Assembly: GCF_000719115.1 (NCBI RefSeq)
Contig: NZ_JOEA01000005.1
Coordinates: forward strand, 507,080 to 571,079
Length of the DNA: 64,000 nt
Origin: Lentzea albidocapillata
GTDB taxonomy: Bacteria > Actinomycetota > Actinomycetes > Mycobacteriales > Pseudonocardiaceae
Reading direction: 5' to 3'
In this document: piece by piece, positions 10,916-39,169 of the stretch
Position numbering within the stretch: the first letter of the stretch is position 1
Layout: each line of letters opens with the position of its first letter
Made by a program: the position numbers and the translations under genes
Notes under the pieces: model-generated
Databases searched by the model: none
Seen by the model: the letters and a program-made list of their open reading frames with translations, nothing else
Told to the model about the DNA's origin: nothing

Positions 10916-11803
10916 TCACTGACAGCCGCATCCGGCAGCGGATTTGGCTTCGGCCAACGTCACGCCCGGCTCGACCGCTTGCTCGGTCGGCGTGCAGCAC
11001 GCACTGACGCCACAGCACGACGCTTCACCCTGCGTCACAACAGGGATGTCAGCCGATTCGATCGGCTTGGTCGCGCGCACGATCGCTCCGTGCATCCCGT
11101 CCGCGGCCTCGAAGGTCGGCGTGATCTCGATGCCGGCGAAGCCAGCCGCCTGCAGACCTTCGCGGTACTCGGTGAAGGTGAGGGCCCCGGCGATGCAGCC
11201 GACGTAGGAACCCCGCTCAGCTCGCTCGGCGGGCGTGAGGTGGTCGTCGGCGACCACGTCGGAGATGCCGATGCGGCCGCCGGGGCGCAGAACGCGGAAG
11301 GTCTCGGCGAACACGGCGGGCTTGTCGACGGAGAGGTTGATGACGCAGTTGGAGATCACGACGTCGACGGTGTTGCCGGGCAACGGGATGGCCTCGATGT
11401 TGCCCTTGAGGAACTCGACGTTGGTGGCGCCGGCCTTATCCGCGTTGGACAGTGCGAGCGCGAGCATCTCGTCGGTCATGTCCAGCCCGTAGGCCTTACC
11501 GGTCGGACCGACACGGCGGGCGGAGAGCAGGACGTCGATGCCGCCGCCCGAGCCCAGGTCCAGCACCCGCTCGCCCTCGCGGAGCTCGGCAACCGCGGTG
11601 GGGTTGCCGCAGCCGAGTGAGGCGGCGACCGCCTCGGCGGGCAGCTGGTCGCGATCGGCCGCGGCGTAGAGCGTGGCGCCGAAGTTCTCGTCGATCTCCA
11701 TAGCCTCCGGGCCGCAGCACCCACCTCCCCCTTGGGCCACAGCGGTCGCTGCTGCCGCATAGCTGGCGCGAACCGTTTCCCGCAGCTCGGTCTGCTCGCT
11801 CAT
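10916..11803 (-). CDS. arsM: Arsenite S-adenosylmethionine methyltransferase ArsM
   Basis: 295 residues. The class I methyltransferase motif [18 protein letters not shown] lies near residue 80. The three conserved arsenic-binding cysteines of ArsM are visible in [16 protein letters not shown] and YVGCIAG. An N-terminal GGCCG and a Cys-rich tail (SCCGVSACC ... CGCQ) may add thiol sites. ArsM methylates As(III) with SAM to methyl- and dimethylarsenicals in the cytosol. The gene is divergent from an arsR across an 80-nt gap with repeated operator-like sequence. Its product could feed the organoarsenical pathway at 21-31 kb; that link is inferred. Confidence 0.95.
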
Positions 11804-20910: not shown

Positions 20911-21371
20911 TGGCGATGGCCCTGCAAGTCCTGATCGTCGGCCACGTCCTGCTGGGCCTCATGGCCACGATCACCGGAGCCGCCGCCATGCTCAGCCCCA
21001 AGCGAGCCGGCCGACATCCCCGCCGGGGCTTGTTCTACCTCGCCGGACTCACGGGCGTCGCGCTGACCGGCAGCGTGATCGCCATGTCCGACTGGACGCA
21101 CCTGTGGCACCTCGCCACCCTCGGTGCCGCCGCGGCGGCCTTGGCCGCGATGGGCTTCGCCGCGCGACGGACGCGATGGCGCGGTTGGCTCGCCTGGCAC
21201 ATCGTCGGCATGGGCGGCTCCTACATCGCGATGCTGACGGCGTTCTACGTCGACAACGGCCCGCGCCTGCCGCTGTGGCAGCTTTTGCCGCCAGTCACGT
21301 TCTGGTTCCTGCCCGCGATCGTCGGGCTGCCGCTGATCGCGTTCTCCCTGCGCCGCTACGTCCGAACCTGA
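20907..21371 (+). CDS. Four-helix membrane protein (DUF2306-like)
   Basis: Starts at GTG 20907 or ATG 20910, overlapping the upstream stop (GTGA), so it is translationally coupled. About 150 residues with four transmembrane helices (QVLIVGHVLLGLMATITGAAAML; LATLGAAAAALAAMGF; WHIVGMGGSYIAML; VTFWFLPAIVGLPLIAF). The pattern of His residues in helices resembles small integral membrane proteins of unknown function. Its 3' end overlaps convergent mtnD by 16 nt. Confidence 0.6.
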   Translation: MMAMALQVLIVGHVLLGLMATITGAAAMLSPKRAGRHPRRGLFYLAGLTGVALTGSVIAMSDWTHLWHLATLGAAAAALAAMGFAARRTRWRGWLAWHIVGMGGSYIAMLTAFYVDNGPRLPLWQLLPPVTFWFLPAIVGLPLIAFSLRRYVRT

Positions 21372-21946
21372 TGGCTGGGAGCGAGCAGCCCGTCCAGCGA
21401 CGGCATCCGGGACGAGATGGTGTCGCCGGTGAACCCGGCGATCCAGCCGTCCTCCTCCTCGAAGAACCGGATCGCGCAGAACTCGGGCACCGTACCCATG
21501 TCGAACCAGTGCCGGGTGCCGGCGGGCACCGACATCAGGTCACCGGCCTCGCACACCACCGCGTAGATCCGGTCGCCCAGGTGCAGGTAGAAACATCCGC
21601 GTCCTTCGACGAAGAACCTGACCTCGTCCTCGTCGTGGGTGTGCTCGTCGAGGAACTTCTCCCTGGCGGCCTTGGCCTTCGCCGGCCACTCGGGATCGGA
21701 GTCGTCCGGACGCAGCCGGACCACGTCGACCAAGCGGAAGCCCTCGTCAGCGCGCAAGCGGTCGACCTCGGCGCCATAGGCGGCGAGCACTTCCGCCTGC
21801 CCCACATCCGGAGGCAGCTCGACTGTCGGCCACTGCTGCAGCGAGATGCCGAACCGCGCGAGTTCTTCGGCGATCAGACCGACATCCGTGGTCCGCAGCA
21901 GGACAGCGTTTCCGTCGTTCTCGGGAATGACCTGTAACAGAGCCAT
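21356..21946 (-). CDS. mtnD: Acireductone dioxygenase MtnD
   Basis: 196 residues, cupin fold. The metal site shows as EHTHDEDEVRFFVEG (His-x-His-x-x-x-Glu/Asp) and GTRHWF (last His). The enzyme oxidises acireductone to the 2-keto acid precursor of methionine, a late step of methylthioadenosine salvage. It is the last gene of the minus-strand run that begins with arsL and lies 25 nt after mtnAB. Enolase-phosphatase and MTA phosphorylase/nucleosidase genes are not in the window. Confidence 0.93.
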   Translation of the reverse strand: MALLQVIPENDGNAVLLRTTDVGLIAEELARFGISLQQWPTVELPPDVGQAEVLAAYGAEVDRLRADEGFRLVDVVRLRPDDSDPEWPAKAKAAREKFLDEHTHDEDEVRFFVEGRGCFYLHLGDRIYAVVCEAGDLMSVPAGTRHWFDMGTVPEFCAIRFFEEEDGWIAGFTGDTISSRMPSLDGLLAPSHQVRT

Positions 21947-21971
21947 GATCGTGCCTTCCGTACGCAGACGG

Positions 21972-23546
21972 TCATCGTTGGTCTGTGAGCAAGTGCAACT
22001 GGCACAACGCTTCCAGGCTTTCCAACCGGTTGCGTGCCTCGTCCAGCGTCGCGCCCCAGGCGGTGGCGCCGTGATGGGCGATCAACAGGACCGGCGGGCC
22101 TTGCCGGTCGGTCAGCCGCTGGGAGATCTCCGCCGCGATTCTCGGGACCTCGGCCCAGTTCGTGAACACGGGCACCTGTACGACAGACGTGGCGCCAAGC
22201 CCTTTGATGATCTCGAAGTCGGTGAACGTCACCGCTCCGGCTTCCGCTGCCAAGGCGGCGACCGCGGTGGTGTGAGGCGGGTGAGCGTGTACAACGGCAC
22301 CACAGTCCGGAAACGCGCGGTACAGCGCCGCGTGGATGCTTGCTTCCGCCGACAGAGGAGGTCCCGGGCATCGGGTCGGCAGACCGGACTCGGCGTGCAT
22401 CTGGACGATGTCGGCGGCGGTCAGTTCTCCTTTGCTGCGACCACTTGCCGTGATCAGCGCCTGGCCGCCCGGCAACCTGACCGACAGGTTGCCCGCTGTT
22501 CCGTCCATCCACCCTCTGGCGTGCAGCTGGCGCGCCAGTGCTGCCACACGATGTGCACTGCCGGCGGCCAGCACTCGCAGTTCGGTGACCACGGCGCTGA
22601 CCAGGTCGGCCGGGGTGACGTCGAAGGCGGGATTGTAAGCGGCCGCACCTGGGGGAGTAATGCGGCCGCCTACAAAGTTGAGGACTTCCTCTTCGTCGCG
22701 CTCCTCAATGGTGATCGCCGTACCGGCGTCCAGTGTTGATTCGGGAGCGGCGACGATGAAGGGGACACCGCTGCGCGCGGCGGCCAACGCGAGCGAGTAC
22801 GTGCCTATCTTGTTGGCAACGCTGCCGTTGGCCGTCACCCGGTCTGCTCCGACGACGACCACATCGACCACCCCGGCTGCGATGGCGGCCGGCGCGGCGG
22901 AGTCGACGCACACCCGGCACGGGATACCTGCCTCGGCCAGTTCATAGGCGGTCAGTCGAGCACCTTGCAGCAACGGGCGGGTTTCCGTGGCCAGCACCGA
23001 TTCCACATGACCCGCATCTGCAAGAGATCGAATCGCCCCGAGCGCTGTGCCCACACCGGTTGTGGCGAACCTGCCGGTGTTGCAGTGGGTGAGGATGCGC
23101 AGCGGTCGCCGTGTGGTCAGCTCGAGCACCACTTCGGCGGTTCTGTCCGCCACCGCGGCGGTGATGTCCGCGTCCTCGTGCAGGATGGTCAACGCCTCGG
23201 CCAGCATCGCGTCCGGGCCTTCCGGCAGACGCGTCAGCACCCGCTGGACCGCCCAAGTCAGGTTGACCGCCGTCGGCCGCGCGGCCGTGATGCGTACCGC
23301 GTCCGCTCTGATGGCGTCTGGGCCGGACCTCCTGCGGGCGGAGATCACGACCGCGAACGCTCCAGCCACGCCGATCGCGGGCGCACCCCTGATGGCCAGC
23401 CGGCGGATCGCGTCGACTATCGCATCCACAGTGGACAAAGTGATGAGCCGGTGCTCATGCGGCAGCAATGTCTGGTCGACCGCGATCAGCGCGTCACCAC
23501 GCCACACCAAGGACGGCCTGTCACTCAGTCTTGCCGTTGCGGTCAC
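21972..23546 (-). CDS. mtnAB: Fused methylthioribose-1-phosphate isomerase / methylthioribulose-1-phosphate dehydratase
   Basis: About 524 residues from GTG 23546 (GGGGGA just upstream; frame open to 23591). Residues 1-335 are MtnA: RGAPAIGVAGAFA, THCNTG with the catalytic Cys, and VGADRVTANGSVANKIGTY with the catalytic Asp. Residues 345-524 are MtnB, a class II aldolase fold: DGTAGNLSVR, zinc ligands in HAHPPHTTA, and AHHGATAWG. The fusion runs two successive steps of methylthioadenosine salvage. It lies 20 nt after arsP, in the same transcript as the organoarsenical genes. Confidence 0.93.
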   Translation of the reverse strand: MTATARLSDRPSLVWRGDALIAVDQTLLPHEHRLITLSTVDAIVDAIRRLAIRGAPAIGVAGAFAVVISARRRSGPDAIRADAVRITAARPTAVNLTWAVQRVLTRLPEGPDAMLAEALTILHEDADITAAVADRTAEVVLELTTRRPLRILTHCNTGRFATTGVGTALGAIRSLADAGHVESVLATETRPLLQGARLTAYELAEAGIPCRVCVDSAAPAAIAAGVVDVVVVGADRVTANGSVANKIGTYSLALAAARSGVPFIVAAPESTLDAGTAITIEERDEEEVLNFVGGRITPPGAAAYNPAFDVTPADLVSAVVTELRVLAAGSAHRVAALARQLHARGWMDGTAGNLSVRLPGGQALITASGRSKGELTAADIVQMHAESGLPTRCPGPPLSAEASIHAALYRAFPDCGAVVHAHPPHTTAVAALAAEAGAVTFTDFEIIKGLGATSVVQVPVFTNWAEVPRIAAEISQRLTDRQGPPVLLIAHHGATAWGATLDEARNRLESLEALCQLHLLTDQR

Positions 23547-23565
23547 CGCTCCCCCAGACACCTCG

Positions 23566-24615
23566 TCAGTGCACGAAGACCGCTGTGACAAGCCCGACGA
23601 GCATGCTGCCGAAGAAGCCGATACCGAGATACAGCAAGAAAACTCGGGTGGAGGCCAGCACGCGTACCGCGGCGATGGCGGGAATGGTCGTGACGGCGCC
23701 GCCGAGCAGGAACGTCGTCGCGGCCGCCGGGCTCATGCCCGTCGCCATCAAACCACCGACCACGGGAATCGCGCCGACACCGTTGAGGTACAGCGGTACA
23801 CCGATGGCGGCGGCGAGCACCACCGACAGCACGACGTTGTCTCCGAAGCCGGCGGACACGACCGAGGGCGGGACGAACTTGACGATGAGCGCTTCGGCCA
23901 GCACCGCGACGAGCATCCAGCGCCCGAGCAGCCACACGTCGCGCAGCACCTCGCTGCCGAACCGTCGTGCGCCCATCTGCGCCAGGCCTGCACGTGCCTG
24001 CGGCCACCACGGCTCGGGCTTCTGCTCCACGGGCGGGCTCGCCGGCTCGGATCCGCAGCAGCCTCCCGACTCGGCGGTGTCGTCCGCACGATCCGGAAGA
24101 GCTGTCCCTGCCGCCGACCGCGAGGCCGATCCCACGGTCACCGGGTCAGCGGCTTTCGCCGTCGTGGCCATCTCCAGCCGCAACGGTTGGTCAAGCCACC
24201 CGCGCCGCTCCATGAACAGGGTCACGAAGCCCGCCGCCAGGCTCAGCAGGAGCGCCCCGAGCAGCCGGGCCACCGCGACCGGCATCCCGAGCGCGGCCGC
24301 GGTGAGACCGAAGATCTCCGGGTCGATCGAGGGCGAGGCGATCCAGAACGCCATAGCCACCGAGACCGGCACACCGGCGGCGAGAAAACCGCGGATCAAC
24401 GGGATCACGGTGCAGGAGCACAATGGACTGAACGCGCCAACGGCCGTGCTGAGGACGATGGCTATGACCGTCCGTTTGCGAAATGATCTACCAACGAGGA
24501 CGTCGACCCTCATGTGCTGAAGCAGCACGCTGAAGACGACTGCGAACATGAACCAAGGAATCAGCCCCACGAGCCGGTTCAACGCGTATAACAGCAGCTC
24601 GATGACGACATGCAC
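23566..24615 (-). CDS. arsP: ArsP-type organoarsenical efflux permease
   Basis: 349 residues from GTG 24615, with AAGGGGA 6 nt upstream. Eight or more membrane helices in two blocks are separated by a loop with GGCCGSEP. The FSPLCSCTVIPLIRGFLAAG stretch is the signature of the DUF318/UPF0718 permeases, and its cysteines are needed in ArsP. Characterised ArsP exports trivalent organoarsenicals such as methylarsenite and trivalent roxarsone, not inorganic arsenite. Its place between arsR and mtnAB points to organoarsenicals as the cargo of this locus. Confidence 0.88.
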   Translation of the reverse strand: MHVVIELLLYALNRLVGLIPWFMFAVVFSVLLQHMRVDVLVGRSFRKRTVIAIVLSTAVGAFSPLCSCTVIPLIRGFLAAGVPVSVAMAFWIASPSIDPEIFGLTAAALGMPVAVARLLGALLLSLAAGFVTLFMERRGWLDQPLRLEMATTAKAADPVTVGSASRSAAGTALPDRADDTAESGGCCGSEPASPPVEQKPEPWWPQARAGLAQMGARRFGSEVLRDVWLLGRWMLVAVLAEALIVKFVPPSVVSAGFGDNVVLSVVLAAAIGVPLYLNGVGAIPVVGGLMATGMSPAAATTFLLGGAVTTIPAIAAVRVLASTRVFLLYLGIGFFGSMLVGLVTAVFVH

Positions 24616-24656
24616 AACGATTCCCCTTCGTTCGCTCCCCACGCGAGGTGAATCGA

Positions 24657-24688
24657 GTCTTACCGAGACATCGACGGCTGTCAATGTC
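24657..24688 (-). promoter_or_regulatory. Promoter and operator for arsP-mtnAB-mtnD
   Basis: On the minus strand, TTGACA (24684-24679), a 16-nt spacer and TAAGAC (24662-24657). An inverted repeat GACAT-N12-ATGTC (24667-24688) overlaps it and suits ArsR control by the gene just upstream. Confidence 0.65.
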
Positions 24689-24712
24689 TTGAACACCGGA
24701 TCTCCGGGAAAC

Positions 24713-25036
24713 TCAGGCGCCTGGCCGTCCGAGCGCGCTGAACTGCTGCGCAACGGCGTCCATCGCCCCGTCACGCAGGCGGTAGTAGACCCACACGCCG
24801 CGCCGTTCGCGGTCCAGCAGTCCCACCTCGTGGATCTTCTTCAGGTGGTGGCTGATCGTCGGCTGCGTCAACCCCGTGCCTTCGACGAGGTCGCACACGC
24901 ACGCTTCCTGATCAGGCGCGTCAGCGAGCAGTGCGATCAACTGCAGGCGCACGGGATCGGCGATGACACGCAAGACCTTCGCCAGGTCCTGCGTGTCGCG
25001 GGTCGCTGCGGGTGACAATCCTGCGGAGGCGCTCAC
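24713..25036 (-). CDS. arsR: ArsR-family repressor
   Basis: 107 residues. EACVCDLVEGTGLTQPTISHHLKKI carries the Cys-Val-Cys arsenite site at the recognition helix. It precedes arsP, whose promoter contains a dyad, so it is the likely local repressor. It sits inside the long minus-strand run, so the run may be read from more than one promoter. Confidence 0.93.
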   Translation of the reverse strand: MSASAGLSPAATRDTQDLAKVLRVIADPVRLQLIALLADAPDQEACVCDLVEGTGLTQPTISHHLKKIHEVGLLDRERRGVWVYYRLRDGAMDAVAQQFSALGRPGA

Positions 25037-25088
25037 AGCCTCGACTATAGGACCAGCCGCTGCCGGTTACCCAGAGATCAGCCGTCGC

Positions 25089-25469
25089 CTAATCCTGTGA
25101 CGCGGCCTCGCCTGTTTCCAGAGGAAGGCCCGCTGCGACCCAATCCTGTTTGCCTCCGACGTAACGGTGCACATCTCGGTAGCCGAGCACGTGCAGACTT
25201 CTCGCAACCCGCAAGGAAGCGTCACATGTGTCACTGCCGCAGTAGACGACAATGCGGGCGTCCAGATCGGGCAGTAGCACTTGTGGGAGCGTTTTGGCGC
25301 GCCGAGGCCGGATGTTCAGTGCTCCTGGAAGGTGCCCGGTCGCGAACACTTCCTCTGGAAGGGCTTCGACGAGCACAACCGCGCCCGAGGAAACACCCGC
25401 GGCCACGTCGTCACGCGCAATCTCCGGGATGTCGATCAGGTCGGTGTCGGACACTGGATCTGTCGTCAT
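25089..25469 (-). CDS. Single-domain rhodanese
   Basis: 126 residues from ATG 25469 (MTTDPVSDTDLIDIPEIAR). The rhodanese fold shows as VLVEALPEEVFATGHLPGALNI and the active-site loop VVYCGSDTCDAS, with the persulfide-forming Cys and a second Cys five residues on. Rhodaneses move sulfane sulfur and some act on arsenate or thiols. Here it lies between the ABC ATPase and arsR; a role in arsenic-thiol chemistry is inferred. Confidence 0.88.
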   Translation of the reverse strand: MTTDPVSDTDLIDIPEIARDDVAAGVSSGAVVLVEALPEEVFATGHLPGALNIRPRRAKTLPQVLLPDLDARIVVYCGSDTCDASLRVARSLHVLGYRDVHRYVGGKQDWVAAGLPLETGEAASQD

Positions 25470-25503
25470 GATGACCTCACGTGTGGTCGAACAAGGACTG
25501 GGC

Positions 25504-26199
25504 CTAGGGCACGGCGAGATCTGGCACACCGGAGGTGACCTGGACGACGCGGCCGCCGTCCAGCACGACACACCGGGTGCATCGCATGCCGACTTCCTCG
25601 GGACGGTGGCTGGACATCACCACACAGGTTCCGTTCTCGACGAGCTCGCTGATTCCGTCGAGCACCACCTGCGCGGTGACTTGGTCGAGAGCGGAGGTGG
25701 GTTCGTCGAGCAGCAGCAACCGCGGACGAGGAGCGAACGCTCGAGCGAGCGCGACGCGTTGACGTTGTCCACCGGACAGCGAGGCGGGATAGTCCGCGGC
25801 ACGATCGACGAGGCCGAGACGGTCCAACCAGGTCAGTGCCTCTGAGCGTGCCTTGTCAGCAGGCAATCCAGCGGCTCGGCAACCGAGCTCGACGTTGGTC
25901 AGCACGGTGCGTGTCTCGAACAGCGCGACCTCCTGCAGCACGGTGCCGGTGGATCGCCAGGCCTTGCGCGCCTCGTGGCGGTTGCGACCGGGCAGCCAGG
26001 TGCCGAGGTTGAGCACCCGGCCCTTGCTCGGCGGGCACAGGCCATTGATGGTGCGCAAGATTGTGGACTTGCCACAGCCGCTCGGACCGACCAGCAGCGT
26101 CCACTCGCACGTACCGCTGGTGAGGCTGACGTCGTCGAGGATGCAACAGTCCTTGACCCGGACCTCGACGTCCTCCAGGGCGATCGACGGTTCAGCCAC
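25504..26199 (-). CDS. Amino-acid-type ABC transporter ATPase
   Basis: 231 residues from GTG 26199 (GGAGG 9 nt upstream), overlapping the binding-protein stop by 8 nt. Motifs: [12 protein letters not shown] (Walker A), SLSGGQRQRVALARAF (signature), LLLLDEPTSALD (Walker B), SSH (switch His). It energises the two permeases encoded upstream. The family is polar amino acid uptake. Confidence 0.93.
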   Translation of the reverse strand: MAEPSIALEDVEVRVKDCCILDDVSLTSGTCEWTLLVGPSGCGKSTILRTINGLCPPSKGRVLNLGTWLPGRNRHEARKAWRSTGTVLQEVALFETRTVLTNVELGCRAAGLPADKARSEALTWLDRLGLVDRAADYPASLSGGQRQRVALARAFAPRPRLLLLDEPTSALDQVTAQVVLDGISELVENGTCVVMSSHRPEEVGMRCTRCVVLDGGRVVQVTSGVPDLAVP

Positions 26200-27052
26200 G
26201 GGGCCACACCTCCAGCTCACCCTGCACCGGCACGGGTGTGTTCGACGAGGGGCCGAACCACCGGTCGTAGATCTTTTGCCACTCGCCGGCGGCGGACAGG
26301 TCCTGAAGCGCGAAGTCGACGGCTGCCCGCATCTGAGAGTCGCCTCGGCGGATGCCGATGCCGTCGAGCTTCACGCCGATGGGCTGGTCAAGCACGACCA
26401 GCCCGGGATCGTTCTTGGCGAAGCCGGCCAGGATCTCGTAGTCCTCTGCGTAGCCGGCGAGGTTGCCCTGCCGAACCGACTCGGCCGCAGCCCGCTTGTC
26501 GCTGAACTCCTCGATCTTCGGTTCCCCGCTGTGCCCTTTCCCGCTCAGCCAGCTCTTCCAGTTGCCGATCGCGCTGCTGCCGCGGTCCATGGCGACGGAC
26601 TTGCCGACCAGGTCCTCGAGCGAGCGCGCGGTGTCCTTGCGGACGAGGAACGTCTGGAAGGACCGGAAGTAGGTCTGGCTGAAGTCGATCTTCTCGGCGC
26701 GTTTGCGGGTCTTGCTCATGCTGGCCACCGCGATGTCGATGGTGCCCTTCTCAAGAAAGCTGATCCTGGTCAGCTCGTCGACTTTGACGATCTCCAATCG
26801 CACGCCGAGGCTCTTGGCGACCGCGTTGGCGATGTCAACGTCGAATCCGACGTGCTGTCCGTTCGCGTCGATCGAGCTGTGTGGTGGGTTGTCCGACCGG
26901 ATGCCGGCTTTCAGCACGCCTTGTTTCTTGACGTGATCGAGGGTGCTGCCTCCGGCTGTGGAACCCGCTGACGATGTGCAGCCGGCCACAGCCAGCAGCG
27001 CCGCCAGCAACGCCACTATCCCCCAGCACCGTCTGTGTGAGATCACCTTCAT
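26192..27052 (-). CDS. Family 3 solute-binding lipoprotein of an ABC importer
   Basis: 286 residues from ATG 27052, overlapping the permease stop by 4 nt. Signal peptide with lipobox LAVAGC. GVLKAGIRSDNPPHSSID and FDVDIANAVAKSLGVRLEIV are typical of binding proteins for polar amino acids (SBP_bac_3). The ligand is unknown; in this operon it might be an amino acid or amino-acid-like organoarsenical, which is inference. Confidence 0.92.
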   Translation of the reverse strand: MKVISHRRCWGIVALLAALLAVAGCTSSAGSTAGGSTLDHVKKQGVLKAGIRSDNPPHSSIDANGQHVGFDVDIANAVAKSLGVRLEIVKVDELTRISFLEKGTIDIAVASMSKTRKRAEKIDFSQTYFRSFQTFLVRKDTARSLEDLVGKSVAMDRGSSAIGNWKSWLSGKGHSGEPKIEEFSDKRAAAESVRQGNLAGYAEDYEILAGFAKNDPGLVVLDQPIGVKLDGIGIRRGDSQMRAAVDFALQDLSAAGEWQKIYDRWFGPSSNTPVPVQGELEVWPRG

Positions 27053-27699
27053 GCCATGGCCCCCCTTCGAGTCCGTACCCAGCGTTCCAACACGTGAATT
27101 CCCGCCACCAGCGTCAGCGTCGCCGCCAGGTACAGCGCCGCTGCCGTGCCCAGCACCAGCGCCCACCGGCTGAAGCTGGCTTCCGCGCCCAGTGATCGTG
27201 CGACCGTCGTCAGCTCTCCGATGCCGACGATGGTCAGCGCGCCGGTGTCCTTGAGCAGCGACACCGCGTGCGTGCCAAGAGCTTCGAATGACCGCAGGAA
27301 CGTCCACGGCGCACGCAGCTGCAGCTCCCGTCGCGTCCACCCCATGCCCAGCACCAGCCCTTGCTCCGACATGTGGGCCGGGTAGGCCGCCAGGTAGGAC
27401 CGCAGGATCTCCCCGACGTGGGAGAGCGAATACAGCAGCAGTGCCACGAACCCCGCGATGCTCAAGATCAACGTCGAGGCCTGCGCGATGAAGAACACCA
27501 GCAGCAGCAACGGAACGCCGCGCAGCAGTGACAGACCGGCCTGCAGCACAACGCTTGCTCGCGGGAAGGCCGAGCAGATCGCCGCGTAGACGTATCCGAG
27601 CGCGAGAGCACAGCCGAGTGCGCCGGCCGCGAGCACGATGCTCAGCACCAACCCGCCAGGACGTTGGCCCGGGAAGCCGAGCAACAGGTTCTCGATCAC
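27049..27699 (-). CDS. ABC importer permease (His/Glu type), second subunit
   Basis: 216 residues from GTG 27699 (4-nt overlap with the first permease gene). Five membrane segments, and the EAA loop GLVLGMGWTRRELQLRAPWTFLRS with LLKDTGAL, typical of amino-acid permeases. Works with the subunit at 27696-28403. Confidence 0.9.
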   Translation of the reverse strand: MIENLLLGFPGQRPGGLVLSIVLAAGALGCALALGYVYAAICSAFPRASVVLQAGLSLLRGVPLLLLVFFIAQASTLILSIAGFVALLLYSLSHVGEILRSYLAAYPAHMSEQGLVLGMGWTRRELQLRAPWTFLRSFEALGTHAVSLLKDTGALTIVGIGELTTVARSLGAEASFSRWALVLGTAAALYLAATLTLVAGIHVLERWVRTRRGAMA

Positions 27700-28403
27700 G
27701 GCACCGGCACCGCCTGCGGCGTGGATTCCGGCACGGCGCGGGATGGAGGTCGCAGACGCGCCTCCAGCAGACGCGTGGAGATCCAGATCGCCTGGCTCAA
27801 CACGATGTAGATGACCGCGCCGAGCCCGGCGTACTGCGCCACGGCGAAGGTCTCGTTGCTCGCCTCCACCACTCCACCGAAGATCTCGACCACGGGGAAC
27901 AGCGCGGCGAAGCCGGTGTTGTGCAGGTGGTGGACCAGGCGTGCGCCCAGCGGCCCGAGCACCAGTGGCAGCACTTCCCGGCCCACGACGCGAAGCTGCT
28001 GGGACGGCGACAATCCCATGACGCGGGCCTGTTCGAGCCGCTTGCTGCCGACCGACTGCCAGGCCGTCAGGTAGATCACCGCGATGTGGCCGGCCGATCC
28101 CACGCCCAGTGCGGCCACGATGCCCCACGCGACGAACTGGAACTGCGGTGACGTACCGGGGAACACGACAGGAAGTGCCGGTACGTCACCAACCCGCATG
28201 CAGGCAAGGCCGAACACGATCACCAGAAGACTGGTGGGCACGCCTCGCGTCACGTGCATGGCGGCGGTGGCAGCGAGGCGGAACACCCTGTGCCTGCTGT
28301 GGGTGCCGACGGCGATGAGCAGAGCCGCGCTCATCGCCAGTCCAGCGCTCAGCACCCACAGCAGCAGGCTGCCCGAGATCCACAAGCCGATCTCGGCGTA
28401 CAT
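27696..28403 (-). CDS. ABC importer permease (His/Glu type), first subunit
   Basis: 235 residues from ATG 28403, with GGGGGAGG 5 nt upstream. Membrane segments, TRGVPTSLLVIVFGL near the middle, and an EAA-like loop ARVMGLSPSQQLRVVGREVLP. It forms the membrane core of the importer with the next gene. It lies 32 nt after osmC. Confidence 0.9.
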   Translation of the reverse strand: MYAEIGLWISGSLLLWVLSAGLAMSAALLIAVGTHSRHRVFRLAATAAMHVTRGVPTSLLVIVFGLACMRVGDVPALPVVFPGTSPQFQFVAWGIVAALGVGSAGHIAVIYLTAWQSVGSKRLEQARVMGLSPSQQLRVVGREVLPLVLGPLGARLVHHLHNTGFAALFPVVEIFGGVVEASNETFAVAQYAGLGAVIYIVLSQAIWISTRLLEARLRPPSRAVPESTPQAVPVP

Positions 28404-28435
28404 GTGACCTCCCCCAACTCTCGCTTCCGAGAGCA

Positions 28436-28930
28436 TCACGTGCGGGTCGTGGCCACCTCGCGCAGTACCTCAGGAGCCTCCACCAGTTGCCAGTCCACCC
28501 TGACCTCCACCGGAACGGCGCTGCGCACGGAGGCGGTGACGGTGCAGTGCTTCTCGAACACCTCCGCACACCGCTCCAGCCGCTGCGAGTCCGCCGGCAC
28601 GACGGGCCGGAGAACGACCTCGACGCGGCGGATGCGCGGCAGGCCCTCGTCGTTCGGCGCGACCACCGTGATCGCGTCGGCGGTGAAGCTCTGCACGTCG
28701 ACGTGCGCGTGCCGCAACGTCTCGAGCAGGCTGGCCGACAAGCAATGCGTCAGCGCAGCGCCGAACAGTGCCGGCGTCGCGTGCGCCGATGCCTCACCCA
28801 CCGGATCCGGCTCGTCGGACTGAATCGGCGCGCCGTGCAACCGGCCGTCCTCCGATGCCTGGCTGAGAAACCTGAATCCCCCGCGGTGTTCCAGGCGTAC
28901 CGCGAAGTTGCGTTCCTCTTGACCTCTCAT
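28436..28930 (-). CDS. OsmC-like thiol peroxidase family protein
   Basis: 164 residues from ATG 28930 (MRGQEERNFAVRLEHRGGFRF). The two conserved cysteines of OsmC/Ohr appear in ALTHCLSASL and FEKHCTVTAS. Such proteins reduce hydroperoxides by a Cys pair. In the arsL operon it could protect against oxidation or hold arsenicals; both are guesses. Confidence 0.85.
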   Translation of the reverse strand: MRGQEERNFAVRLEHRGGFRFLSQASEDGRLHGAPIQSDEPDPVGEASAHATPALFGAALTHCLSASLLETLRHAHVDVQSFTADAITVVAPNDEGLPRIRRVEVVLRPVVPADSQRLERCAEVFEKHCTVTASVRSAVPVEVRVDWQLVEAPEVLREVATTRT

Positions 28931-29077
28931 GTGCACGACGTGCTCCCCTCGGTGAGCCATCGTCGGCGGCCGATCCACCCCATGCCGAAGACGTCACGTG
29001 TCCCACACACGTGGCAGTCATGACCCAGGCAGTCGTGGCGGCGGCGACGACGGCGGTGAACTTCGTTTGCGTACGTG

Positions 29078-30292
29078 TCAGCTGTGCGCGAGCACAGGCT
29101 CCGCTCCGAACATCGACGCGCGCTGCGCGGAGTACTCCTCGAGCAGTCCGGCGACCTCGGGCCGCAGCTCCGGGTCGGTCATGATGAACGCCGAGCTGAT
29201 GTTCCGCGACTCGCAGCCGCGCACGATCTTGGCCTCGTGCGACCCCATGCCGAACTCGACCTGACGGACTCCCTCGGCGTAGGCGTCCGCGACCGGCAGG
29301 TCGAACATCAGCACGAAGTAGACGCTGCTGCGTTCCCCGAGTGCGGTGTAGTCGAAGCCGACCGACTTGATGTAGATGCGGTCGTGCTTGCGGAAGCCCA
29401 GGCACACACCGACGATCTCGTCACCGCGACGCCCGACCCAGCAGCGGACGTCGACGCCCTCGCTGAGAAGTTGCCGCAGCACGGTCTCGTTGTGTTCGAA
29501 GCGTGCGCTGGCGCCATAGCGTTGCCGGTTCATCATCGTCAGCTCGGCGACGCGTGCCGCGTTGTTCGCCAGTTCGTCCTTCTCGATGCGGTCGAACGTG
29601 ACCCCGGCGTCGACGGCCGCCTGGCGGTCCAGGTTCAGCCGGCGTCGTTTGCGGCTGGGCATGCGCGCCACGTGGTCGGCGTAGTTGTCAGCCGTCAACT
29701 GCAGGAAGTCCTCGGTCCCACGGAATCCCACCGCTGCTCCGAGCCGCTCCAGCGCGGTGACGAGGTGCTGATTGCCCATCCGGTCCGGGATCCACGGTGC
29801 CACAACACATTGCACACCGCGTTCCTGTGCGGCCTGCACGGACGCGGTGACCAGATGGCGGAACAGCTCCGGCGTCCAGAAGGTGAACGCCGCCTCGGTG
29901 CGATATCCCAACGGCGACCCCAGCATGAGCGCGGGGAAGAACGCGTCGACACCCAGTGCGCTCACCCGGTCCACTGCCGACTGGGGCAGTTCTGCCCCGC
30001 CGCAACACGCCTGAACGTCGGGCGAGGGTTGCCAGCCGAGATAGGTACGAGGATCGAAGTCGAGGTCCGGCGGTGTGGTGTAGATGTAGCCGGGCAGCAG
30101 GGCGTCCTCGTTGCGCAACCTGTGCGCGGTGGTGTGGAACGGTTCGCCCTCGGTCATGGCCGACTCCGCGGACCGCAGCCAGGTCGGCGTGATGTACGGC
30201 CACGCCTCCCTCAGGTTCTCGCGCTCGAACTCCCAGTCCCAGGACGGCAGTTCCGCTCCCGCCTGGGTCACGATGCGTCCTACTCCACCCAT
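29078..30292 (-). CDS. BioF2/FemAB-like GNAT acyltransferase
   Basis: 404 residues from ATG 30292 (AGGGGGAG 5 nt upstream). The C-terminal half has the GNAT layout of Acetyltransf_6 proteins: basic RKRRRLNLD, CWVGRRGDEIVGVCLGF, a long strand-helix segment IYIKSVGFDYTAL, and VEFGMGSHEAKIVRG. Homologues attach acyl or aminoacyl groups to amines. It directly follows arsL (37-nt gap), so a tailoring step on the arsenical amino acid, such as N-acylation or peptide-like coupling, is possible. No close family function is known to me. Confidence 0.65.
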   Translation of the reverse strand: MGGVGRIVTQAGAELPSWDWEFERENLREAWPYITPTWLRSAESAMTEGEPFHTTAHRLRNEDALLPGYIYTTPPDLDFDPRTYLGWQPSPDVQACCGGAELPQSAVDRVSALGVDAFFPALMLGSPLGYRTEAAFTFWTPELFRHLVTASVQAAQERGVQCVVAPWIPDRMGNQHLVTALERLGAAVGFRGTEDFLQLTADNYADHVARMPSRKRRRLNLDRQAAVDAGVTFDRIEKDELANNAARVAELTMMNRQRYGASARFEHNETVLRQLLSEGVDVRCWVGRRGDEIVGVCLGFRKHDRIYIKSVGFDYTALGERSSVYFVLMFDLPVADAYAEGVRQVEFGMGSHEAKIVRGCESRNISSAFIMTDPELRPEVAGLLEEYSAQRASMFGAEPVLAHS

Positions 30293-30329
30293 GATGCTCC
30301 CCCTGAAGTCGAGTGTTTCGCCTGCGCGG

Positions 30330-31586
30330 TCAGCATTTGACGCAGCAGCGGACCTCGCCGACGTCGACCGCTTCGCCGCGTCGTTCCTGCCACAGCTCCT
30401 CGACGCGGGGGTCGGAATGCGTCCACTCGAAGTAGAAGCCGCGGTCCTCCAGCGGAACCCCTTCGATCCACGGGGAGGTCAACAGCGGTGAACCCTTGAA
30501 CAGCAACAGCCTCGTCTGCAGCACCGTGGGAGCCGCGACACGGCTCAACCCGGTCTCCTCCAGGAAGTCCTCGAATCCCAGCAGTTCCTCGTACGTCACC
30601 CAGGGCGTGAACGGGATGAACGTCGGGTTGAGGACGACGCCGAGATCCTCGGCTGCCGCGATGGCCCGGCGGGTGTCGTCGATGTCGATGCCCTTGTCGA
30701 AGATCCGCAGGATGCGGTCGGAGGGGAACTCCAACGCCGACGTGATCACCTTCAGCCCGAGATCAGCCAGGTGCTTGATCTCCTTGGGGTACTGCAGGAT
30801 GTGATCGACACGGGTGGTGATCTCGTAGGTGTGCGGCTTGCGGCCGGTGGCGTTGATCGCCTCGACGACCTCGATGCCGAACTTCCGGGAGTTGAAGAAC
30901 TCCGCGTCGATGAAGGCGAAGTGCTCGGCGCCCTGCTCCTCCAGCACCAGCGCGTCAGCGACCACGGCGTCCACGGAGATCGGCGAGAACCGGCCCTCGT
31001 ACGCGCCGTACACCGAGCAGTAGGTGCACTTGTGGTGGCACCCGCGGCTGACCTCGATGTTGCCCATCAGCCCGAACTTGGTGTTGTGGGCCGGATATTC
31101 CGTGATCGGCGGGAATGCCGCGCGATCGGGACTGGCCCACTCCATCCGCGAGTTCGGTGGTCGCGGCTTGCCGCCGTCGCGGCTGAAGAGCCCCGGAATC
31201 TCGTGCCGGGCCGCGTGACCGCGAGCCAGGTCAGCGAGTCCCTTGGAGATCCGCTCGGGCTCGTCCATCGCGATGGCGTCGACGCGACCCATGAACGCCC
31301 GGGAGTTCATCTGCGCGTACTGACCAAAGGCCACCACCTGTCGCGCGACCGACGGGTCCTGCAACCAGTCCAGCAGCGCGATGCCGCGATCAAGGCCGGC
31401 GTACTGCTGCACTGACAGCAGTACCAGGTCGAACGGACCTTCCGGACGATCATCGGGAAACATGTGTGCGTCCCAGGCCTGCACGTTCAGGCCTTCGCGC
31501 TTCAGCGCGGCGACCGCGCTGGCGGCGGCGATGGGCTGGAGTTCACTCTCATAGGACGAGACGATTAAGCATGACGAATCAGACAT
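30330..31586 (-). CDS. arsL: ArsL-type radical SAM enzyme (organoarsenical biosynthesis)
   Basis: 418 residues. An N-terminal Rossmann/B12-binding-like domain (SSYESELQPIAAASAVAAL ... DLVLLSVQQYAG) precedes the radical SAM barrel with SRGCHHKCTYCSVYGAYEG, the Cys-x3-Cys-x2-Cys cluster site near residue 180. The extreme C-terminus is EVRCCVKC, matching the Arg-Cys-Cys-x-Lys-Cys tail of ArsL from arsinothricin biosynthesis. ArsL moves the 3-amino-3-carboxypropyl group of SAM to As(III), giving hydroxyarsinothricin and methylthioadenosine. It heads a twelve-gene run and is divergent from an arsR. Confidence is high for the family, lower for the exact product. Confidence 0.85.
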   Translation of the reverse strand: MSDSSCLIVSSYESELQPIAAASAVAALKREGLNVQAWDAHMFPDDRPEGPFDLVLLSVQQYAGLDRGIALLDWLQDPSVARQVVAFGQYAQMNSRAFMGRVDAIAMDEPERISKGLADLARGHAARHEIPGLFSRDGGKPRPPNSRMEWASPDRAAFPPITEYPAHNTKFGLMGNIEVSRGCHHKCTYCSVYGAYEGRFSPISVDAVVADALVLEEQGAEHFAFIDAEFFNSRKFGIEVVEAINATGRKPHTYEITTRVDHILQYPKEIKHLADLGLKVITSALEFPSDRILRIFDKGIDIDDTRRAIAAAEDLGVVLNPTFIPFTPWVTYEELLGFEDFLEETGLSRVAAPTVLQTRLLLFKGSPLLTSPWIEGVPLEDRGFYFEWTHSDPRVEELWQERRGEAVDVGEVRCCVKC

Positions 31587-31675: not shown

Positions 31676-31695
31676 ATTACACAGAACCATGTAAT
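31676..31695. promoter_or_regulatory. Operator in the arsL/arsR divergent region
   Basis: Inverted repeat ATTACA-N8-TGTAAT between arsL and the divergent arsR, the 6-8-6 layout common to other ArsR sites in this window. It could control both directions. Confidence 0.6.
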
Positions 31696-31707
31696 TAGGT
31701 AGTTAGA

Positions 31708-32088
31708 ATGGAAGCCATGGCGACTCCGATCCGCACCTCCGGCCAAGCCGAGGCCGCACCCCTGCGCGACCGCCCACTGCTCGACGACCACGAAGCAGCC
31801 GGCGTGGCAGCCCTGTTCAAGGTGTTGTCGGGGACAACACGACTGCGTCTGCTGCACGCGCTCAGCCGAGCAGAGGAAGTCCGTGTCAGCGATCTCGCGG
31901 CGGCGGTGGACATGAGCCAGCAGGGCGTGTCCAACCAGCTGCAGCGCTTGGTGGACCAGAAGATCCTCGCGACCCGCCGCGAAGGAACCAGCATCTACTA
32001 CCGGATCGTCGACCCGTGCGTGCCGCGGATGCTGGAGTTCGGCCTGTGTCTGCTGGAAAGTCCCGGGAACGCGTGCGGGCAGCCGTGA
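31708..32088 (+). CDS. ArsR-family regulator divergent from arsL
   Basis: 126 residues (ATG 31708 or 31717). The winged helix has VSDLAAAVDMSQQGVSNQLQRL, but the usual Cys-x-Cys is replaced by Arg-Val-Ser. Cysteines instead sit at the C-terminus (DPCVPRMLEFGLCLL ... NACGQ). A C-terminal thiol site may tune it to organoarsenicals, Cd or other metals. Its stop overlaps the next gene's GTG by 3 nt within GTGA. Confidence 0.88.
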   Translation: MEAMATPIRTSGQAEAAPLRDRPLLDDHEAAGVAALFKVLSGTTRLRLLHALSRAEEVRVSDLAAAVDMSQQGVSNQLQRLVDQKILATRREGTSIYYRIVDPCVPRMLEFGLCLLESPGNACGQP

Positions 32089-32837
32089 CGACGGACGATT
32101 CCGGGTGGTGGCACACGTTCTTCGACGAGTACTACCTGCGGACCTACGGACCGCGACAGACCTCGGAGGTAGCTTCACAGGAGGCTCTCGCGGCACTCGC
32201 CTTGGCCGACACTCCCCGCGGCGGGAGAGTGCTCGATCTGCCGTGCGGATACGGCCGGCACACCAGCGCACTCGTCGCCGCGGGCTATTGCGTGGTCGGC
32301 GCCGACTACTCGTGGGCCCAGTTGACCGAGGCGCGGCGGCGATGGCCACGTCCAGAGCTCGAACAGCTGGTGCGCGCCGACTATCGGCACATCCCGCTGA
32401 AGACCGGCGTGTTCGACACGGCCTTGTGCCTCTACAGCTCACTTGGCTACGTGGACGACACCACTGACCAGCAGGTCCTACGCGAGTATCGGCGCGTGCT
32501 CAAGTCGGACGGCAGGCTCGTCATCGAGACCATGCACCGCGACCGCACCTTGCTGACGTCACAGCCGAGAACGTTCTACGAGCTTCCAGATGGCGCGGTC
32601 CTGCTCGAGGAAGCACAGTTCGATCCGATCTCCGCGACACTCCACATCGGACAAACGTTCATCGCATCAGGTGAGCCATCACAAAAACGTCAATACTCCG
32701 TGCGGCTGTACACCGTCAGCGAACTCGTCAACATGCTGCACACCGCAGGGTTCCCGCGCGTCGACTGCTTCGGCGATCTCGAAGGTGCACCCTTCACACC
32801 GCGGACCCTGCTGACGATCGTCGCGCGCGCCAGCTGA
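32085..32837 (+). CDS. Class I SAM-dependent methyltransferase
   Basis: 250 residues from GTG 32085 (GTGA overlap with arsR). Motif I is GRVLDLPCGYGRHTSALVAAG; later GVFDTALCLYSSLGYV and FRRVLK-like (YRRVLKSDGRLVIE) motifs are standard. It lacks the three ArsM cysteines. Transcribed with the regulator that faces arsL, it may methylate an intermediate or product of that pathway. Substrate unknown. Confidence 0.8.
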   Translation: MTTDDSGWWHTFFDEYYLRTYGPRQTSEVASQEALAALALADTPRGGRVLDLPCGYGRHTSALVAAGYCVVGADYSWAQLTEARRRWPRPELEQLVRADYRHIPLKTGVFDTALCLYSSLGYVDDTTDQQVLREYRRVLKSDGRLVIETMHRDRTLLTSQPRTFYELPDGAVLLEEAQFDPISATLHIGQTFIASGEPSQKRQYSVRLYTVSELVNMLHTAGFPRVDCFGDLEGAPFTPRTLLTIVARAS

Positions 32838-34823: not shown

Positions 34824-35573
34824 ATGGACGAGCAGGCTGCCGACTTACGTGAAGTGGTGCGCGCGAAGTACGCCGCCGCTGCCAGCGCCGTCAGCGCAGG
34901 CGGCACCGCGTGTTGCGACCCGCAGGGAATCGAGGTCGGCGAGAACTTCGGGGCGACGCTGTACGCCACGTCCGACCACACCGAGTTGCCCGCCGAAGCA
35001 GTGGCCGCGTCACTGGGATGCGGCAATCCGACGGCCGTCGCCGAGCTGCGCGAGGGCGAACGCGTCCTTGACCTCGGTTCAGGCGGCGGCATCGACGTTC
35101 TGCTCTCGGCGCGCCGGGTAGGCCCGACCGGTAAAGCCTACGGCGTCGACATGACCGACGAGATGCTCGCCTTGGCCAGGGAGAACGCGGCCAGGGCCGG
35201 CGCGACCAACGTCGAGTTCCTCAAGGGCGCGATCGAGGCCATCCCGTTGCCTGCCGACAGCATCGACGTGGTCATCTCGAACTGTGTGATCAACCTGTCC
35301 GTGGACAAGTCGGCGGTGTTCGCCTAGATCTTCCGCGTCCTGGCGCCCGGTGGCCGCATCGGTGTGTCGGATGTCGTGGCCGAGGACGACCTGACAGCAG
35401 AGGAACGCGCCGAGCGAGGTTCGTACGTCGGCTGCATCGCGGGCGTCCTGTCGTTCACCGAATACCGTCGAGGCTTGGAGAGCGCGGGACTCGCGGACAT
35501 CGAGATCACTCCGACCCGCGAAGTCACGGACGGCATGCACTCCGCGATCATCCGGGCTGTCAAGCCTTCATGA
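34824..35573 (+). pseudogene. arsM: Second arsM, interrupted by an in-frame amber codon
   Basis: The frame opens at ATG 34824 and is highly similar to the arsM at 10916 ([39 protein letters not shown]). At 35325-35327 a TAG replaces the Glu codon of the AETFRVL motif, after 167 residues. The same frame then continues for 82 codons (FRVLAPGGRIGVSDVVAEDDL; YVGCIAG with the third conserved Cys) to TGA at 35573. One point change explains the break. Unless suppressed, the truncated product lacks the third arsenic-binding Cys. A strong terminator follows. Confidence 0.85.
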
Positions 35574-35629: not shown

Positions 35630-36706
35630 TCAGAGTTCCGCTCGGGCGGCCCACCGGCGCCGCAGCCAAAGGCTCACGTAAACCAGGCCGACGAGCACGG
35701 GCACCTCGATCAGCGGCCCGACCACTCCGGCCAGCGCCTGGCCCGACGTCACGCCGAACACACCGATCGCGACCGCGATGGCCAGCTCGAAGTTGTTGCC
35801 CGCCGCGGTGAACGCCAGCGTCGTGGTCCGCTCGTAGGAGAGTCCCGACGCCTTGCCGAGCGCGTACGAACCCGCCCACATGATGGCGAAGTAGACCAAC
35901 AACGGCAGAGCGATGCGCACGACGTCCAACGGCCGGTTCGTGATGGTCTCACCCTGCAACGCGAACAGGATGACGATCGTGAACAGCAAGCCGTACAACG
36001 CGATCGGGCCAACGCGCGGCAGGAACTTCGACTCGTACCACTCGCGGCCCTTGGACCGCTCCCCCAGCTTGCGGCTGAGGTAGCCGGCCAGCAGCGGGAT
36101 GCCGAGGAAGATGAGCACGGACTTGGCGATCTCCCACGCGGAGAAGTCCACCGACGCGGTGTCCAGGCCGAGCCAGCCGGGCAGCAGGTCGAGGTAGAAC
36201 CAGCCGAGCACACCGAACATGACCACCTGGAACACCGAGTTGAGCGCGACCAGCACCGCGGCCGCCTCGCGGTCACCACACGCGAGGTCGTTCCAGATGA
36301 TGACCATGGCGATGCAGCGCGCAAGGCCGACGATGATCAGACCGGTGCGGTACTCGGGCAGGTCGGCCAGGAAGATCCACGCCAGCGCGAACATCAACGC
36401 CGGACCGAGCACCCAGTTCAGCACCAGCGACAACACCATCGTGCGCTTGTCGCGGGTGACGGTGTCGAGCTTGTCGTAGCGGACCTTCGCGAGCACCGGG
36501 TACATCATCAGCAGCAGACCGAGCGCGATCGGCAGCGAGACGCCGTCGATCTTCACCGCTTCCAGGACACCCTGCAGGCCCGGCACGAAGCTGCCGAGCC
36601 CGAGGCCGGCGACCATGGCGAGGCCGATCCACGCCGGCAACCACCGGTCCAGAAAAGACAGCCGGTGCAGGACGTCCTGCTCCTCCGTCGGGTTGGTGGT
36701 GCTCAA
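35630..36706 (-). CDS. acr3: Acr3 arsenite efflux permease
   Basis: 358 residues with ten membrane helices. VGLARCIAMVIIWNDLACGD contains the essential Cys of Acr3 helix 4, and FTAAGNNFELAIAVAIGVFG is the family motif of helix 9. Acr3 exports As(III) through the membrane. The start overlaps the stop of the upstream arsR by 4 nt, so arsR-acr3 is one operon, ending at the terminator at 35580. Confidence 0.95.
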   Translation of the reverse strand: MSTTNPTEEQDVLHRLSFLDRWLPAWIGLAMVAGLGLGSFVPGLQGVLEAVKIDGVSLPIALGLLLMMYPVLAKVRYDKLDTVTRDKRTMVLSLVLNWVLGPALMFALAWIFLADLPEYRTGLIIVGLARCIAMVIIWNDLACGDREAAAVLVALNSVFQVVMFGVLGWFYLDLLPGWLGLDTASVDFSAWEIAKSVLIFLGIPLLAGYLSRKLGERSKGREWYESKFLPRVGPIALYGLLFTIVILFALQGETITNRPLDVVRIALPLLVYFAIMWAGSYALGKASGLSYERTTTLAFTAAGNNFELAIAVAIGVFGVTSGQALAGVVGPLIEVPVLVGLVYVSLWLRRRWAARAEL

Positions 36707-37420: not shown

Positions 37421-37440
37421 GTTCATCAAACAGGATGAAC
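37421..37440. promoter_or_regulatory. Operator before the arsR at 37053
   Basis: Inverted repeat GTTCAT-N8-ATGAAC starting 8 bp upstream of the ATG and overlapping the 3' end of the response regulator gene. Confidence 0.6.
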
Positions 37441-38172: not shown

Positions 38173-38244
38173 GCAGGCTCGCCGCCGCGTGTGGAACTGT
38201 GAGCTGTCGGACTCCCAAGCCCCCAACGCAGAGCCCGTCATGGC

Positions 38245-39144: not shown

Positions 39145-39169
39145 GAGTTCTCGCTCCTTCATTCGCGTG

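Follow-up and report, generated by a model that had tools for sequence, protein, structure and literature searches.

A stretch of 64,000 nucleotides from Lentzea albidocapillata (contig NZ_JOEA01000005.1, positions 507,080 to 571,079; hereafter the window) was analysed around arsL, a gene that encodes a radical S-adenosylmethionine (SAM) enzyme related to ArsL. The source assembly comprises 8.64 Mb on 126 contigs. In the window, arsL is the first of twelve minus-strand genes that run to mtnD over positions 21356-31586 (Table 1). Every open reading frame (ORF) of the block is uninterrupted, neighbouring genes overlap slightly or are separated by no more than about 150 bases, depending on the choice of start, and an independent codon-scored gene call recovered 11 of the 12 genes, missing only the short rhodanese gene. 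This gene order had been given by a first-pass annotation of the sequence, which proposed an organoarsenical antibiotic locus, and it was confirmed here. Profile matches also agreed with the families assigned to OsmC, the rhodanese, the binding protein, the ATPase, permease 1, ArsR, MtnAB and MtnD. Of the two ABC permeases named at that stage, the first was matched by PF00528, and the second proved divergent and below every cut-off (26.4 bits for PF00528 and 303 bits for NF007028, where its E value was 3e-12).

Table 1 Features of the twelve-gene block and its surroundings in the window.
Feature	Position	Strand	Evidence
ArsL-type radical SAM enzyme, 418 aa	30330..31586	-	NF040542 441.8 bits, tree, Cys triads, AF2 model
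FemX/BioF2-like transferase, 404 aa	29078..30292	-	PF13480, PF04339, fold, position beside arsL
OsmC-like protein	28436..28978 (alternative start 28930)	-	PF02566 37.6 bits
ABC permease 1, polar amino-acid type	27696..28439	-	PF00528 36.3 bits
ABC permease 2, divergent	27049..27699	-	PF00528 17.3 bits; GlnP-type NF007028 46.8 bits
Family 3 amino-acid binding lipoprotein of ABC importer	26192..27052	-	PF00497 128.7 bits
ABC importer ATPase	25504..26220	-	PF00005 106.8 bits
Single-domain rhodanese	25089..25469	-	PF00581 53 bits; two Cys, 77 and 82
ArsR/SmtB repressor with CVC motif	24713..25036	-	NF033788 89.6 bits
ArsP_1-family permease, start uncertain	23566..24639	-	PF03773 139.4 bits (cut-off 32.3)
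Fused MtnA-MtnB	21972..23591 (alternative start 23507)	-	TIGR00512 347.9 bits, TIGR03328 155.7 bits
MtnD acireductone dioxygenase	21356..21946	-	PF03079 97.9 bits; HTHDEDE and PAGTRH motifs
Divergent ArsR/SmtB regulator facing arsL	31708..32088	+	NF033788 80.8 bits
Class I SAM methyltransferase	32085..32837	+	PF13649 60.2 bits; best NCBIfam 63.9 bits, below cut-off
arsM, broken	34824..35327	+	NF008823 match with in-frame TAG at 35325-35327
Intact second ArsM	10916..11803 (alternative start 11701)	-	NF008823 305.6 bits, above cut-off, no internal stop
ACR3 arsenite efflux pump	35630..36706	-	TIGR00832 457.4 bits (cut-off 282.8)

The arsL product carries the motifs of an ArsL-type enzyme. The Cys-x3-Cys-x2-Cys site and the RCCVKC tail, both noticed earlier, were located exactly at Cys183, Cys187 and Cys190 and at residues 413-418, and a 41-sequence ArsL alignment has 57 invariant columns, which include both Cys triads. 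All 120 matches listed for the first protein search, the window's own protein among them, have CX3CX2C, and RCCVKC ended 112 of the 119 other proteins among the matches listed for the window-type search. A search with the protein from Vogesella returned RCCLKC in all 120 matches listed. Compared with RCCLKC, the tail named in the NCBI ArsL model NF040542, the window enzyme keeps the Arg and three Cys and has Val in place of Leu. One of its two closest relatives is P0002, a protein of a Pseudonocardiaceae metagenome-assembled genome (MAG), at 79% identity (78-79% for that genome); the window enzyme shares 39% identity with the ArsL proteins of Burkholderia cepacia and B. oklahomensis and 27-29% with two CCAEP proteins. 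A 54-row tree placed it inside an actinobacterial group of 30 rows with support of 100/100. Structures matched by the AlphaFold2 (AF2) model (predicted local distance difference test score 92.5, with residues 416-418 of the tail at low confidence) include OxsB and TsrM, of the cobalamin-type radical SAM enzymes, as well as AprD4. It is well supported that this gene heads an ArsL-type locus, and the enzyme is predicted to transfer the 3-amino-3-carboxypropyl (ACP) group of SAM to As(III). At scores above 400 bits, arsL occurred in 3 of 297 genomes of a family sample, the window's included. In a phylum-wide sample only one of 396 genomes matched at E<=1e-100, namely the window's own, and arsL is therefore sporadic.

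A scan of GTDB species genomes returned 34 arsL loci, of which 23 are actinobacterial (L009-L031), 7 are proteobacterial (L032-L038) and 4 are remote or partial (L039-L042) and were left out of every count. Some contigs end early, and the neighbourhood counts are lower bounds. A FemX-like gene lies directly after arsL on the same strand in 22 of these 23 other actinobacterial loci, the exception being L031. Within the flanks covered, CobW was present in 22/23, ArsM in 20/23, an ATP-grasp ligase in 13/23 and ArsP in 10/23; the count for the ligase rose to 17/23 once longer stretches of L009, L015, L016 and L017 were included. In 10/23 loci (L009, L010, L011, L014-L019 and L022), mtnA shares the strand of arsL and lies no more than 12 kb away, with gaps of 5.0-11.4 kb. 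Streptomyces locus L010, for example, has the order arsL-femX-cobW-arsM-arsR-ATP-grasp-mtnA-B-D-C-P. These results indicated that arsL with a FemX-like transferase, often with an ATP-grasp ligase and often with a methionine-salvage set, is a recurring actinobacterial cluster. The idea that the locus is unique was thus ruled out for arsL-femX and for the mtn linkage. The first-pass annotation had described the gene set as one not known from an actinomycete; the combination of arsL with mtn is not peculiar to this genome, and only the ABC importer, OsmC and rhodanese, in place of cobW-arsM, were found in the window alone.

Streptomyces clusters with arsL-femX-cobW-arsM, the ATP-grasp ligase and mtnA-B-D-C-P were observed at L010:9983-21028, L073, L075, L076 and L102-L107, and these fuller clusters are more suitable than the window for first tests. 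Locus L031 of Nonomuraea solani (L031:10016-17469) has a divergent arsL (50% identity) and no FemX-like gene; next come a 485-aa protein without an NCBIfam match and a P450-like protein, and hydroxylase-like and ArsR-like genes were recognised there by eye only. This locus may encode a more elaborate organoarsenical pathway.

The gene behind arsL had been called a BioF2-like acyltransferase. Matches to PF13480 and PF04339 bear out the family, and the predicted structure, which contains the tandem GNAT FemX fold, is nearer to FemX than that label implies, its closest relatives being FemX-type, aminoacyl-tRNA-dependent enzymes. The protein also has a vicinal Cys96-Cys97 pair, and such a pair marks the arsL-linked group. 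The enzyme is predicted from its modelled fold to move an aminoacyl or acyl group onto the ArsL product. The ATP-grasp ligase is placed by Pfam near L-amino-acid ligases, with LAL_C2 below its cut-off in L010 and above it in the Vogesella fluminis locus (L034:2249-7876). In that locus the ligase and an AST-type ArsM (NF040539, above cut-off) stand beside arsL, as does an MFS-like pump recognised by eye; because Vogesella is a proteobacterium, the link between the ligase and arsL crosses phyla. No ATP-grasp ligase was found in the window, and the genome gave two matches elsewhere, the better on contig C2 (39%, 123 bits).

At the far end of the block lie genes of methionine salvage. Methylthioribose-1-phosphate isomerase (MtnA) and methylthioribulose-1-phosphate dehydratase (MtnB) are fused in one ORF in which both parts exceed their profile cut-offs (279 and 137 bits), and MtnD exceeds that of the ARD family (27 bits). 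All three carry their catalytic motifs. MtnP and MtnC are absent among the twelve genes, MtnC being found only on contig C15, and the best genome match to MTAP reached 79 bits against a cut-off of 275 in a search that did not extend to MtnN and MtnK. A draw of 199 Streptomyces genomes contained arsL in 6 and mtnA in 175; it was centred on G297 (Streptomyces narbonensis), itself arsL-bearing and included, so that 5/198 is the less biased count. All six arsL genomes, four of which are also among the 23 loci, have mtnA 6.1-11.2 kb downstream of arsL, and mtnB, mtnC, mtnD and mtnP were matched in the same six stretches, with mtnP of G306 in two pieces. MtnA, MtnB, MtnC and MtnP of L010 exceed their profile cut-offs; its MtnD had no meaningful NCBIfam match and was named by 57% identity to the window MtnD.

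The origin of the linked copies was assessed in an mtnA tree, some rows of which are partial, among them those of C15 and Amycolatopsis pretoriensis. A group supported at 96/96 holds the window copy, the linked Streptomyces copies and one unlinked, long-branch Amycolatopsis copy, and four unlinked Streptomyces copies from one branch fell apart from the linked ones. The linked copy of A. pretoriensis sat among divergent sequences that include the C15 copy of the window genome. The kinship of these two partial rows is supported by sequence identity, since C15 MtnA is 66% identical to A. pretoriensis MtnA and 33% identical to window MtnA. The distance in the tree between the Streptomyces/window and A. 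pretoriensis copies indicates that arsL-linked mtnA comes from two distant lineages. Since C15 carries a second salvage set, mtnA-C-B-D, the cluster copies are extra, and a housekeeping mtn operon that came to lie beside arsL by chance is disfavoured. Enzymatic ACP transfer from SAM expels methylthioadenosine, according to one report (PMC10491745), and the linkage can for that reason be read as methylthioadenosine disposal. The gene content fits recycling by the mtn products of methylthioadenosine that would be released by aminocarboxypropyl transfer to arsenic.

The middle of the block sets the window apart. When 45 stretches flanking other arsL genes were searched with the two permeases, the binding protein, OsmC and the rhodanese, none of the five was matched at E<=1e-5; the importer ATPase belongs to a broad cluster. 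Permease 1 was likewise unmatched at E<=1e-20 across an order sample of 396 other genomes, in which at most seven candidates were scored per genome. The amino-acid ABC importer, OsmC and rhodanese are the window-only part, in place of cobW-arsM. The best solved relatives of the binding protein are AncQR (E 1.5e-35) and CDT-type proteins (E 1.9e-35), and the window protein has Arg at one position where AncQR has Glu. Its kept Arg and Asp presumably hold the alpha-amino-acid ends of the ligand, and the Glu-to-Arg position is taken to line the side-chain pocket. A preference for an acidic ligand would follow such a pocket, and we treat it as a lead only. OsmC has Cys at 63, 121 and 129 of its 164-aa form. 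The permease upstream of mtnAB had been called an organoarsenical pump. Its ArsP_1 membership is secure by Pfam; the substrate is less so, the best NCBIfam match being the SO_0444 Cu/Zn exporter family (113 bits, cut-off 300).

Taken together, an arsenic-responsive actinobacterial ArsL-type locus that couples an ArsL product to FemX-like capping and methylthioadenosine recycling is the interpretation that we favour, with some confidence. The ArsL-type enzyme would reductively cleave the C-gamma-sulfur bond of SAM and pass the ACP group to As(III), and the products would be trivalent hydroxyarsinothricin (AST-OH), an arsenic analogue of glutamate, and methylthioadenosine. The latter could be returned to methionine by the MtnA-MtnB fusion and MtnD, whose genes are observed, with the missing MtnC supplied by the second salvage set on C15. 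The fold of the FemX-like enzyme and its constant place behind arsL suggest a capping step on the free amino group of the arsenic-bearing amino acid, for which aminoacyl-tRNA would most likely supply an amino acid as the cap. By family, the ArsP-type and ACR3 pumps would expel organic and inorganic arsenic and the ArsR proteins would switch the locus. More speculatively than any other step, the ABC importer may recover the acidic product or import glutamate, and OsmC and the rhodanese may keep arsenic-binding thiols reduced. A bolder extension, which we advance only tentatively, is that actinobacterial ArsL clusters make peptidyl arsinothricins, with an ArsL warhead, aminoacyl addition by the FemX-like enzyme, a further addition by the ATP-grasp ligase in most of them and return of methylthioadenosine to SAM by a dedicated salvage set. 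The window would then be a divergent maker of aminoacyl-hydroxyarsinothricin with its own importer.

Several observations weigh against this reading. The window enzyme scored 441.8 bits with NF040542 (441.4 in the genome search) and did not reach the cut-off of 450, a model with which six Streptomyces relatives score 482-490 bits; the CCAEP/CUAEP-tail family model gave 237.6 bits. A single ArsL clade that excludes CCAEP, on which the refuting test named by the first-pass annotation turns, was neither recovered nor rejected with distant outgroups and long branches (approximately unbiased (AU) p 0.154). A clean rooted ArsL clade was attempted twice, and neither tree gave one. The earlier identification as ArsL therefore holds at the level of type, by motifs, 39% identity and actinobacterial group, and we use the name ArsL-type because the score is just below cut-off and the AU test neither backs nor rejects a split between ArsL and CCAEP. 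The window enzyme keeps 70 of the 94 positions at which 120 non-actinobacterial relatives are at least 97% conserved; the 24 altered ones are in many cases altered clade-wide across the actinobacterial group. A CCAEP protein, with 57 of them, comes close to that number, so the enzyme could act on a different substrate or form a different product. As to the neighbourhood, the close kinship of the Streptomyces loci, which supply 14 of the 23 and are not independent, means that the counts overstate independent events. cobW and an adjacent arsM, usual partners of arsL, are not present in the window operon, and the arsM nearest to arsL is broken. Thirteen of the 23 actinobacterial loci have no linked mtnA, the genomes of L012, L013 and L028 gave no mtnA match at E<=1e-20, and window MtnAB was unmatched in all seven proteobacterial loci within the flanks covered, some of them short.

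The strongest competing explanation, though one we consider unlikely, is detoxification only, in which As(III) would be turned into an organic form, capped and exported with no antibiotic role. The block stands in a dense resistance island (ACR3, several ArsR, ArsM, ArsK- and ArsO-like genes), the arsM that a methylated antibiotic would call for lies outside the operon, and the actinomycete organoarsenical bisenarsan is reported in a review to have low toxicity, with detoxification suggested there (PMC12159101). Yet efflux and methylation genes nearby already serve detoxification, and the FemX-like enzymes and, in other loci, the ATP-grasp ligases resemble biosynthetic tailoring. We regard as improbable that a sulfur/methionine uptake-salvage operon, made up of the mtn, ABC, OsmC and rhodanese genes, lies by chance downstream of a small arsL-femX unit. 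The window-only genes described above would suit such an arrangement, but mtn recurs near arsL from two distant lineages with differing gene order, the genome has another salvage set, and the ABC genes are separated from the mtn genes by ArsR and ArsP. Somewhat less probable again is an actinobacterial clade functionally distinct from Burkholderia ArsL, transferring another SAM fragment or using another metalloid, with the same Cys tail binding the substrate. The NF040542 score, the AU result and positions such as 60, 255, 327, 357, 363 and 383, which are fixed elsewhere but replaced in this clade, are compatible with it; against it, ArsM and the ATP-grasp ligase accompany ArsL in actinobacteria and in Vogesella, pointing to a like amino-acid product, and the mtn linkage fits aminocarboxypropyl transfer, not 5'-deoxyadenosyl chemistry. 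A decaying, non-functional island, to which the stop codon in arsM at 34824 might point, is very improbable given that all twelve genes are open with key motifs present in those checked, and that a 78-79% similar arsL exists in the Pseudonocardiaceae MAG.

The surroundings of the block were also inspected. No ArsM and no GntP-type permease was matched among the twelve genes by profile search. The arsM at 34824 was rejected as a tailoring enzyme on account of its in-frame TAG; stop-free ArsM genes occur about 19 kb from arsL, at 10916-11803, and on contig C25, and the former is a candidate for methylating the product. The methyltransferase at 32085..32837, which is not ArsM by profile and had no match in other arsL loci, is a possible alternative tailoring enzyme. 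An imperfect palindrome at 31685-31704, between arsL and the divergent arsR, is a possible operator. Near the arsenic genes, a plus-strand ORF at 15068-16051 fuses a MerB-like lyase domain (85.7 bits, below cut-off) to an N-terminal DF-family domain. At 18790-20910 on the plus strand is a 706-aa phosphoenolpyruvate (PEP)-synthase-like protein whose model matches, all below cut-off, include prodigiosin ligases and rifamycin phosphotransferase. On the other side, a response regulator, ABC genes and a PstC-type phosphate permease (above cut-off) lie on the minus strand at 37426-42020 beside arsenic genes, and ArsK- and ArsO-like genes, below cut-off, continue to 48431.

Among known systems, the nearest is the arsQML cluster of Burkholderia gladioli GSRB05. 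In its description (PMC8552651), arsL alone yields AST-OH in E. coli and arsQML is found mainly in Proteobacteria, the arsinothricin role of wider ArsL relatives being left open in 2021. For Burkholderia ArsL, product formation has been shown in cells and the mechanism proposed. The two share an ArsL-type enzyme with CX3CX2C and an arsenic-resistance setting. They differ in the tail (RCCVKC against RCCLKC) and in sequence, the identity of about 39% having been measured to ArsL of two other Burkholderia; the window lacks an adjacent arsM and a GntP-type ArsQ among its twelve genes and adds FemX-like, mtn, ABC, OsmC and rhodanese genes. With the L010-type Streptomyces clusters the window shares the FemX-like gene right after arsL, mtn downstream on the same strand and an mtnA of the same tree group; it lacks cobW, an adjacent arsM, the ATP-grasp ligase, mtnC and mtnP, and has fused MtnA-MtnB, the ABC importer, OsmC and rhodanese. 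The bisenarsan (bsn) cluster of Streptomyces is likewise an actinomycete organoarsenical pathway within a resistance region but, as reported, forms its own As-C bond without SAM-dependent enzymes (PMC12159101). Compared with the FemX and Sbb17-Sba18 transferases, the window protein is 10-14% identical, the arsL-linked group adds the vicinal Cys pair, and aminoacyl-tRNA use is predicted only. Bialaphos is phosphinothricyl-alanyl-alanine, made from a phosphonate by a nonribosomal peptide synthetase. By analogy only, a peptidyl arsinothricin would correspond to it with arsenic in place of phosphorus. A literature search on arsinothricin, ArsL and ACP, methylthioadenosine and arsenic, judged by title and abstract opening and with subscription papers mostly outside it, gave, among the papers listed, nothing on actinobacterial arsL clusters or arsL-mtn linkage; among the matches listed for the names SaoE and RCCLKC there were unrelated papers only.

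The window carries a variant of a little-studied group of such loci, whose products may be antibiotic arsenic peptides, and the comparison of the recurring cluster is the most useful result. The recurring mtn link is a genomic sign that ArsL-type enzymes release methylthioadenosine. Peptide products, as predicted from the FemX-like and ATP-grasp partners, would be missed by searches using arsinothricin standards alone, and the Streptomyces and an Amycolatopsis with fuller clusters are strains in which arsenic antibiotics of a possibly new class may be sought.

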